Positions 22,253-24,087 of a stretch of 37,451 nucleotides of DNA are shown here, one piece after another; position 1 is the first letter of the stretch, and every line of letters begins with the position of its first letter. The notes under the pieces are model-generated. The model saw only the letters and a program-made list of their open reading frames with translations. It was not told the DNA's origin and did no database searches. A program made the position numbers and the translations under genes. Source of the stretch: Methanothermococcus okinawensis (GTDB lineage Archaea; AGJL01; Methanococci; Methanococcales; Methanococcaceae); assembly GCA_015662355.1 (NCBI GenBank), contig DQUI01000067.1, positions 1 to 37,451 of the forward strand. Reading direction: 5' to 3'.

Positions 22253-22606
22253 TTATTCCTCCTTAAATATCACGTAAAACCTGTAGTACCGTGTAAATTT
22301 ACAGTTTCTACATCTCACGTACACACCAGCTACAGTAATAAGAATATCGTGGGTTGTATACTCCTTACAGTTGGAGCACCTATACTCCCCCTCCAGTAGC
22401 CAGTTATCGTATAGATACTTTTTATCCATCTCCTCCTCTAGTGTATTCATCCTGTCAATATAGAGGGTCTTAATAACATAGCACCTTGTAACTTTACAGT
22501 TGGAACACCTGATAAACACCTGGTTAGGATATATCTCTATTATATGGTCTACAAGTTGGTCACAGTTGTAGCACCTACTTCTCTTCTTCAGGATCCAAGG
22601 TTCCAT
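22253..22606 (-). CDS. Protein with two zinc-ribbon repeats, unknown function
   Basis: 117-residue protein consisting of an internal duplication. Each half has one CxxC pair followed about 20 residues later by a second: CYNC and CSNC in the first half, CSNC and CRNC in the second. The halves share a pattern of the form (Y/R)C-x-N-C ... V-(F/Y)-(I/V)-R-C-x-N-C-K-x-T-R-(C/Y)-Y. This suggests two zinc ribbons of about 45 residues joined by an acidic linker. I do not recognise a named family. The ATG at 22606 follows AGAGGGCTCTAT. It lies 38 bases downstream of the SECIS hairpin on the same strand, so it may be on the selenoprotein transcript. Confidence 0.75.
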   Translation of the reverse strand: MEPWILKKRSRCYNCDQLVDHIIEIYPNQVFIRCSNCKVTRCYVIKTLYIDRMNTLEEEMDKKYLYDNWLLEGEYRCSNCKEYTTHDILITVAGVYVRCRNCKFTRYYRFYVIFKEE

Positions 22607-22644
22607 ATAGAGCCCTCTCTTAAAGATTCAATATTAAAAGAGAT

Positions 22645-22682
22645 GCCAAACCTAATCCCATGAGAGGGTTCTTAGGTTTGGC
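22645..22682 (-). promoter_or_regulatory. Archaeal SECIS element in the 3' UTR of the HesB-like selenoprotein gene
   Basis: Read on the minus strand, the 38 bases fold into a perfect hairpin: an 11-bp lower stem (GCCAAACCTAA with TTAGGTTTGGC), an asymmetric internal loop of GAA opposite a single A, a 3-bp CCC/GGG upper stem and a 6-base apical loop TCTCAT. The GAA/A internal loop below a short GC stem is the defining feature of archaeal selenocysteine insertion elements described in Methanococcus species. It starts at the base immediately after the TAG stop codon of the upstream reading frame. Confidence 0.93.
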
Positions 22683-22979
22683 CTAGCAAAACTTCCTCCC
22701 TACATTCCTAAGGGCCAAATATTCGCCGAATAACAGGGATCTTTCCAAAGTTAGATCTACCTCGTTGAGGAGTTCCTTACCTGTCTTGTCTATGTATATT
22801 TTAAAGTCCCCGTCGTAGATCAACTGATCCCCATTAGAAGGTGCTCTTAGACTTATATTGAATTTAGGTCCCCTTCATCCAAAACCTTCAAAGGAGATCA
22901 CCAGGGTATCTATCCCAGTCTCCCTGATCTTTTCTTTTATATATTTTAGGGCCTCTTCAGATATTTTAACAGTTACCAC
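22683..22979 (-). CDS. HesB/IscA-like selenoprotein (selenocysteine at codon 35, TGA)
   Basis: 98-residue A-type (HesB/IscA) fold protein read through an in-frame TGA at 22875-22877. Before the TGA it reads VTVKISEEALKYIKEKI to VISFEGFG; after it, RGPKFNISLRAP to the C-terminus GRKFC. The TGA sits where HesB-like proteins have the first conserved cysteine (GFG-U-x-GP), and a SECIS hairpin follows at once. The only other chalcogen residue is the terminal Cys98. The GTG start at 22979 is chosen because AGGTGGT lies just upstream; there is no ATG. A TATATATA box at 23026-23033 (minus) could give a leader of about 24 bases; the pyrE stop is 65 bases upstream. HesB-like selenoproteins are an established prokaryotic family. 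The role may be iron-sulfur or redox, but is unproven. Confidence 0.9.
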
Positions 22980-23659: not shown

Positions 23660-24087
23660 TTAAGATTTGTCCAGATAGTTAAAATAGCAGTGATAGTTCT
23701 TTTAACCCTTCCCCTAACTTATTCCTATCCAGAACTTTACTCTCCAACCTTGGTAATAGCCAACAGGGATAGCCCAGATGAAGAGTACGCTAAGATGATA
23801 ATAGACAACCTCTATCTAAAGAGGAAGATTGAAGTTTTAAATGCCAGTGAAGTAGAGGTCTTTGAGAGGGAGATAGAGTGTATTCCTAATACTGGACAAC
23901 AACATCTCAGTGGGTTATACAGACTATAGAGAACCCTTACAATCCAGGTTGTTCTATACTAATAGTGGCTGGTTCAGATAGGTGGGGAACTAAAGCCTGT
24001 ATAATGGCATTACTAGATGGTATATACAGGGAGAATAACATTACCTACGTTGAATAGGTGAACAACACCTATAGGATTCTAAGTTAA
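23660..24087 (+). pseudogene. Decayed secreted (S-layer-related?) protein gene
   Basis: The remnant shows three lesions. A ribosome binding site AGGTGATACC at 23649-23658 is followed by TTA where a start codon is expected; compare TTG after the identical site of the phosphohexomutase gene. The frame then reads a signal-peptide-like VKIAVIVLLTLPLTYSYPE and PTLVIANRDSPDEEYAKMI. Near 23880-23905 the sense switches frame, and the C-terminal part reads TIENPYNPGC, then SILIVAGSDRWGTKACIMAL. An in-frame TAG at 24055-24057 interrupts before VNNTYRILS and TAA at 24087. The VAGSDRWGT segment recalls C-terminal regions of methanococcal S-layer-like proteins. The middle is probably deleted too. The 79-residue open frame at 23690-23929 is the N-terminal piece, not an intact gene. 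Confidence 0.68.

Follow-up and report, generated by a model that had tools for sequence, protein, structure and literature searches.

Does a TGA within a coherent reading frame bring that frame to an end, or does it encode selenocysteine (Sec)? The question arises on the minus strand of a 37,451-nt stretch of DNA from Methanothermococcus okinawensis (henceforth the window), where a frame running from 22979 to 22683 is interrupted only once, by the TGA at 22877-22875, in the motif FEGFG-U-RGP. A sequence-only reading had placed here a hidden HesB/IscA-like selenoprotein gene with a SECIS element behind it, and its coordinates for frame, TGA, stop codon and hairpin proved exact to the base (Table 1). 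The frame opens with GTG at 22979; in relatives it is ATG that aligns there. The analyses below indicate that the UGA is almost certainly read as Sec by the archaeal SelB pathway, guided by a SECIS element in the 3′-UTR, and that the gene (hesB) encodes a TIGR01911 HesB-like selenoprotein.

Table 1. Features at the hesB locus (positions in the window).
Feature	Positions	Strand	Basis
HesB-like selenoprotein gene, GTG start, 98 codons plus TAG stop	22683..22979	minus	TIGR01911 match, order-wide conservation, constraint past the UGA
In-frame TGA, codon 35, read as Sec	22875..22877	minus	same codon in 33/33 homologues; aligns with first IscA-type Cys
TAG stop codon of hesB, abutting the SECIS	22683..22685	minus	read from sequence
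3′-UTR SECIS element: 11-bp basal stem, GAA/A kink-turn-like bulge, CCC/GGG apical stem, 6-nt loop	22645..22682	minus	fold, shuffles, uniqueness, covariation
Downstream gene, 117 aa, two similar CxxC zinc-ribbon-like repeats	22253-22606	minus	no Pfam family reaching its cut-off
Open frame of 79 codons lying between pyrE and hemA, in the reverse orientation to its neighbours	23690-23929	plus	open frame only

A further member of a known family

HesB-like proteins are already listed among the prokaryotic selenoproteins (TIGR01911, motif UxGP; PMC13188914), and in M. maripaludis the orthologue was recognised as one through mutagenesis and labelling with 75Se (PMC11097638). The earlier statement that such proteins occur in the Methanococcales is supported by a documented family with a labelled member. 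The window gene resembles that family and its M. maripaludis representative (MMJJ_08070) in family score, UxGP motif, Sec at the first HesB Cys, size, 3′ SECIS and taxonomic order; it departs from them by ordinary divergence only, including the GTG start and U-R-GP where U-G-GP is commoner. It is an additional member of the known Methanococcales HesB-like selenoprotein family: one more well-supported case, real but ordinary. The word ‘hidden’ is apt for gene callers that take TGA as a stop, but not otherwise, since TIGR01911 is curated and the family catalogued. What the locus does illustrate is that bare sequence can be enough to recognise a recoded gene that gene callers break in two.

Conservation of the gene and of its UGA

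Homologues of hesB were found in 33 of the 36 genomes of the order, spanning five genera, and each match contains exactly one in-frame TGA. The UGA falls at the identical aligned codon in 33/33 (28 by alignment, the rest read one by one); no Cys version at codon 35 was found among the hesB homologues of the 36 genomes. The homologue alignment that the earlier reading had proposed as a check thus returned UGA/Sec at codon 35 throughout. A scan of the genome contigs with the single protein found no relatives; an alignment-based scan of the contigs found nine named relatives. Both the Sec and a C-terminal Cys are invariant in the 28-row alignment; at one locus outside the alignment (L027) the C-terminal residue is Tyr. 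Near-universal retention of hesB with Sec, and never with Cys, suggests that the selenol matters.

Three genomes of the same genus (G025, G031 and G032) gave no hesB match, though SepSecS was found in them. G025 is 99% complete but in ~120 contigs; loss of hesB and an assembly gap are both possible.

Comparison of the window gene with three sister loci gave dN/dS values of ~0.09-0.15 for the codons past the UGA and an excess of synonymous changes over the same codons (P 5e-6 to 9e-5; simple binomial on site counts, applied to codons with a one-base difference). Judged from these substitutions, the codons past the UGA are under purifying selection, that is, constraint at the level of the protein. 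Coding through the UGA at codon 35 is demonstrated by comparison of sequences, because 33/36 genomes carry the gene with one in-frame TGA and because synonymous changes are in excess after it.

The SECIS element

The hairpin begins directly after the TAG stop. The 3′ flank of hesB has a folding energy of -22.1 kcal/mol, whereas shuffled versions average -11.8 (z -3.9; 0/200 shuffles as good). A whole-window scan for hairpins of the archaeal SECIS shape, covering the two strands, returned a single site, the hesB SECIS, with a score of 25; first-order Markov resamplings of the window (n=60) gave 0.2 sites per window at a score of at least 17, and a best score of 20. An Rfam scan of the window at curated thresholds gave no SECIS family match. 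The element agrees with the archaeal SECIS as defined in M. maripaludis (PMC11881835) in its basal stem, GAA/A kink-turn-like bulge, C-G apical clamp, loop of 4-6 nt and location in the 3′-UTR, which bears out the ‘archaeal-type SECIS’ of the sequence-only reading. To function in vivo, the M. maripaludis SECIS requires both As of its GAA bulge (PMC11881835), and the window element has both. The window element differs in having A-U pairs beside the bulge, where the M. maripaludis-defined element has G-C: a change of bulge-adjacent pairs of this kind left ~60% activity in vivo (PMC11881835).

A SECIS follows the hesB stop in 30/33 homologues (27/30 loci plus three further loci). In a 25-row alignment of these elements the core AACC and GGA are invariant, and 10/11 pairs of the basal stem show changes on both sides; the covariation score is 0.62 and falls to 0.16-0.29 when the pairing is shifted by one column. 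Across loci the UGA-to-bulge distance is 190-214 nt, the value for L013 reading low as the pattern matched early. In the loci of genus g5, L022 and L024 included, the hesB stop and last codon lie inside the basal stem (GCTAACCGG...CCGGTTAGC), so that coding and RNA structure overlap. The covariance model (R1) was built from hesB SECIS elements only and is too specific for listing whole selenoproteomes. At L037 (G018) the bulge is AAA/A, not GAA/A, a variant reported to be active but weaker in M. maripaludis (PMC11881835).

Relatives with a UGA and no adjacent SECIS

In G007 (L034), G008 (L023) and G014 (L021) hesB keeps the UGA and an intact frame, and the adjacent SECIS has been lost. At L034 a lower stem (GCTAAC/GTTAGC) is left, ~16 bases including the apical arm being missing relative to G004; at L021 and L023 there is no SECIS remnant. 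No SECIS-shaped hairpin with a score of at least 15 was found on the gene strand within ~6 kb of the three genes, in a scan for which the G004 locus, as control, scored 25. A scan near the same genes at a lower threshold returned a coding-sequence artefact only; it recovers the weakest known SECIS (score 12) but missed the genuine L015 element, which has a basal mismatch, and its sensitivity is therefore imperfect. A GAA/A-like fold around the UGA in L021 and L023 was rejected as a candidate: it is protein-fixed coding sequence, weak (score 14) and absent from L034.

Behind vhuD-like genes, all three genomes have SECIS elements of the normal kind. A comparison of G014 with G008 shows 7 synonymous changes past the UGA against 0 non-synonymous ones (P 1e-5), and in these two the frame past the UGA looks constrained. 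The SECIS-less genes may have an atypical or distant SECIS, may have lost theirs too recently for decay, or, in G007, may reflect an assembly deletion. That Sec is inserted in these relatives, a natural archaeal gene relying on an element that is distant or has escaped recognition, or on no SECIS at all, seems to us unlikely. The three relatives make it possible to test, in nature, how far Sec insertion in archaea depends on a SECIS close by; a SECIS reporter assay for Sec insertion is established in M. maripaludis (PMC11881835).

Selenocysteine machinery

The genome to which the window belongs (1.02 Mb in 90 contigs, 97% complete) contains SelB, SepSecS, PSTK and a tRNA-Sec with anticodon UCA. 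SelD in this genome is likewise encoded with an in-frame UGA (HGUSC), and its SECIS starts at the stop codon of selD. The Sec machinery that the sequence-only reading had predicted is therefore present in full. SepSecS was found in 36/36 genomes of the order.

Family assignment and predicted fold

For the family searches the UGA/Sec was handed over as Cys. The match to TIGR01911 (NCBIfam HesB_rel_seleno) is barely over its cut-off (68.9 bits against 66.35), and just under it (64.7) in a six-frame search of the genome, which was unable to read TGA as Cys. With PF01521 the translated window protein scores exactly at the cut-off and a search of its own genome missed hesB; all 28 aligned homologues (28/28) match the family. 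A profile search of the PDB reached IscA-type chains weakly (HI1723, E 0.006) and placed the UGA position on the Cys that is conserved first in these chains, in agreement with the place that had been assigned to the TGA of FEGFG-U-RGP.

Structure prediction without an alignment was unusable (pLDDT 44). An AlphaFold model from ten aligned sequences reached a pLDDT of 89, and its structural matches were IscA, AQ_1857 and SufA (1x0g E 1.7e-5; 1r94; 2d2a TM 0.69); the last four residues, Cys98 among them, are placed without confidence. The predicted fold is of the IscA type. The window protein thus has the predicted fold and the first-Cys position in common with the A-type Fe-S carriers IscA, SufA and ErpA (PF01521), and differs from them in having Sec for Cys and in its weak sequence similarity. 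It differs also at the C-terminus: the ligand set of these carriers is an internal Cys plus a C-terminal Cys-x-Cys, whereas here Sec35 is accompanied by one conserved C-terminal Cys. The description ‘IscA-like’ therefore stands for fold and first Cys, but not for the C-terminal pair.

Decoding of the UGA and role of the product

A single TGA does split the frame, and gene callers would call it a stop. If it were a true stop, the product of a nonsense mutation, a sequencing error or a pseudogene, with the hairpin a terminator or a matter of chance, one would have to set aside the same-codon UGA of 33 genomes and five genera, the constraint past that codon, a hairpin that covaries around an invariant AACC/GGA core, and the full Sec machinery; this we consider extremely improbable, and pseudogene, sequencing error and terminator are rejected in view of the conservation. 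Readthrough of the UGA as some other amino acid (e.g., Cys or Trp, by near-cognate decoding), no Sec being involved, would draw on the three relatives that keep the UGA in the absence of an adjacent SECIS and on the constrained frame between two of them. It is nevertheless a very unlikely reading of the window gene, whose SECIS is intact with the adenines that are essential in vivo, whose genome has tRNA-Sec(UCA) and a SelD that relies on UGA plus SECIS, and whose M. maripaludis orthologue was labelled with 75Se. We infer that Sec is indeed inserted in the window organism. SelB would deliver Sec-tRNA-Sec to the UGA at codon 35, the SECIS directly past the stop codon instructing the decoding. 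The product would then take the fold of an A-type iron-sulphur carrier (IscA/SufA), in which Sec35 would stand in for the first of the cluster-binding ligand Cys residues and the single C-terminal Cys for the Cys-x-Cys pair.

The same gene and the same decoding could also yield, in place of an iron-sulphur carrier, a redox protein that uses Sec35 and Cys98 as its pair. The Sec and the C-terminal Cys are invariant over 28 rows while the Cys-x-Cys of IscA is absent, and a disruption mutant of the HesB-like gene in M. maripaludis still fixes nitrogen (PMC11097638), both of which favour such a protein; its fold and family are, however, those of iron-sulphur carriers, L027 ends in Tyr, and the tail at the C-terminus is modelled without confidence, so that the model gives no Sec-Cys distance. 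We regard a redox protein as possible, if somewhat doubtful. Returning to the SelB-decoded HesB-like selenoprotein, its role is, by inference, most likely that of a small protein handling iron-sulphur or metal, with Sec35 and Cys98 as a reactive or ligating pair. The marginal family score, the three relatives that have no adjacent SECIS and the missing Cys-x-Cys of IscA count against the account of a SelB-decoded, IscA-like selenoprotein as a whole.

Neighbourhood of hesB

The genes around hesB gave no functional clue: its neighbour is pyrE in one sister genome and the zinc-ribbon gene in another. As in the window, the zinc-ribbon gene adjoins hesB in G028 (64% identity). In the interval that separates the SECIS of the window from the zinc-ribbon gene, a second hairpin is predicted, CTCTTTTAA...TTAAGAGAG, at about 22613-22643 on the minus strand. 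L024, L032 and L035 share an imperfect inverted repeat, GGTTGTGTTAAGTATTGACATAACC, that is conserved upstream of hesB and immediately precedes a TATA-like box; it is possibly the site of a regulator.
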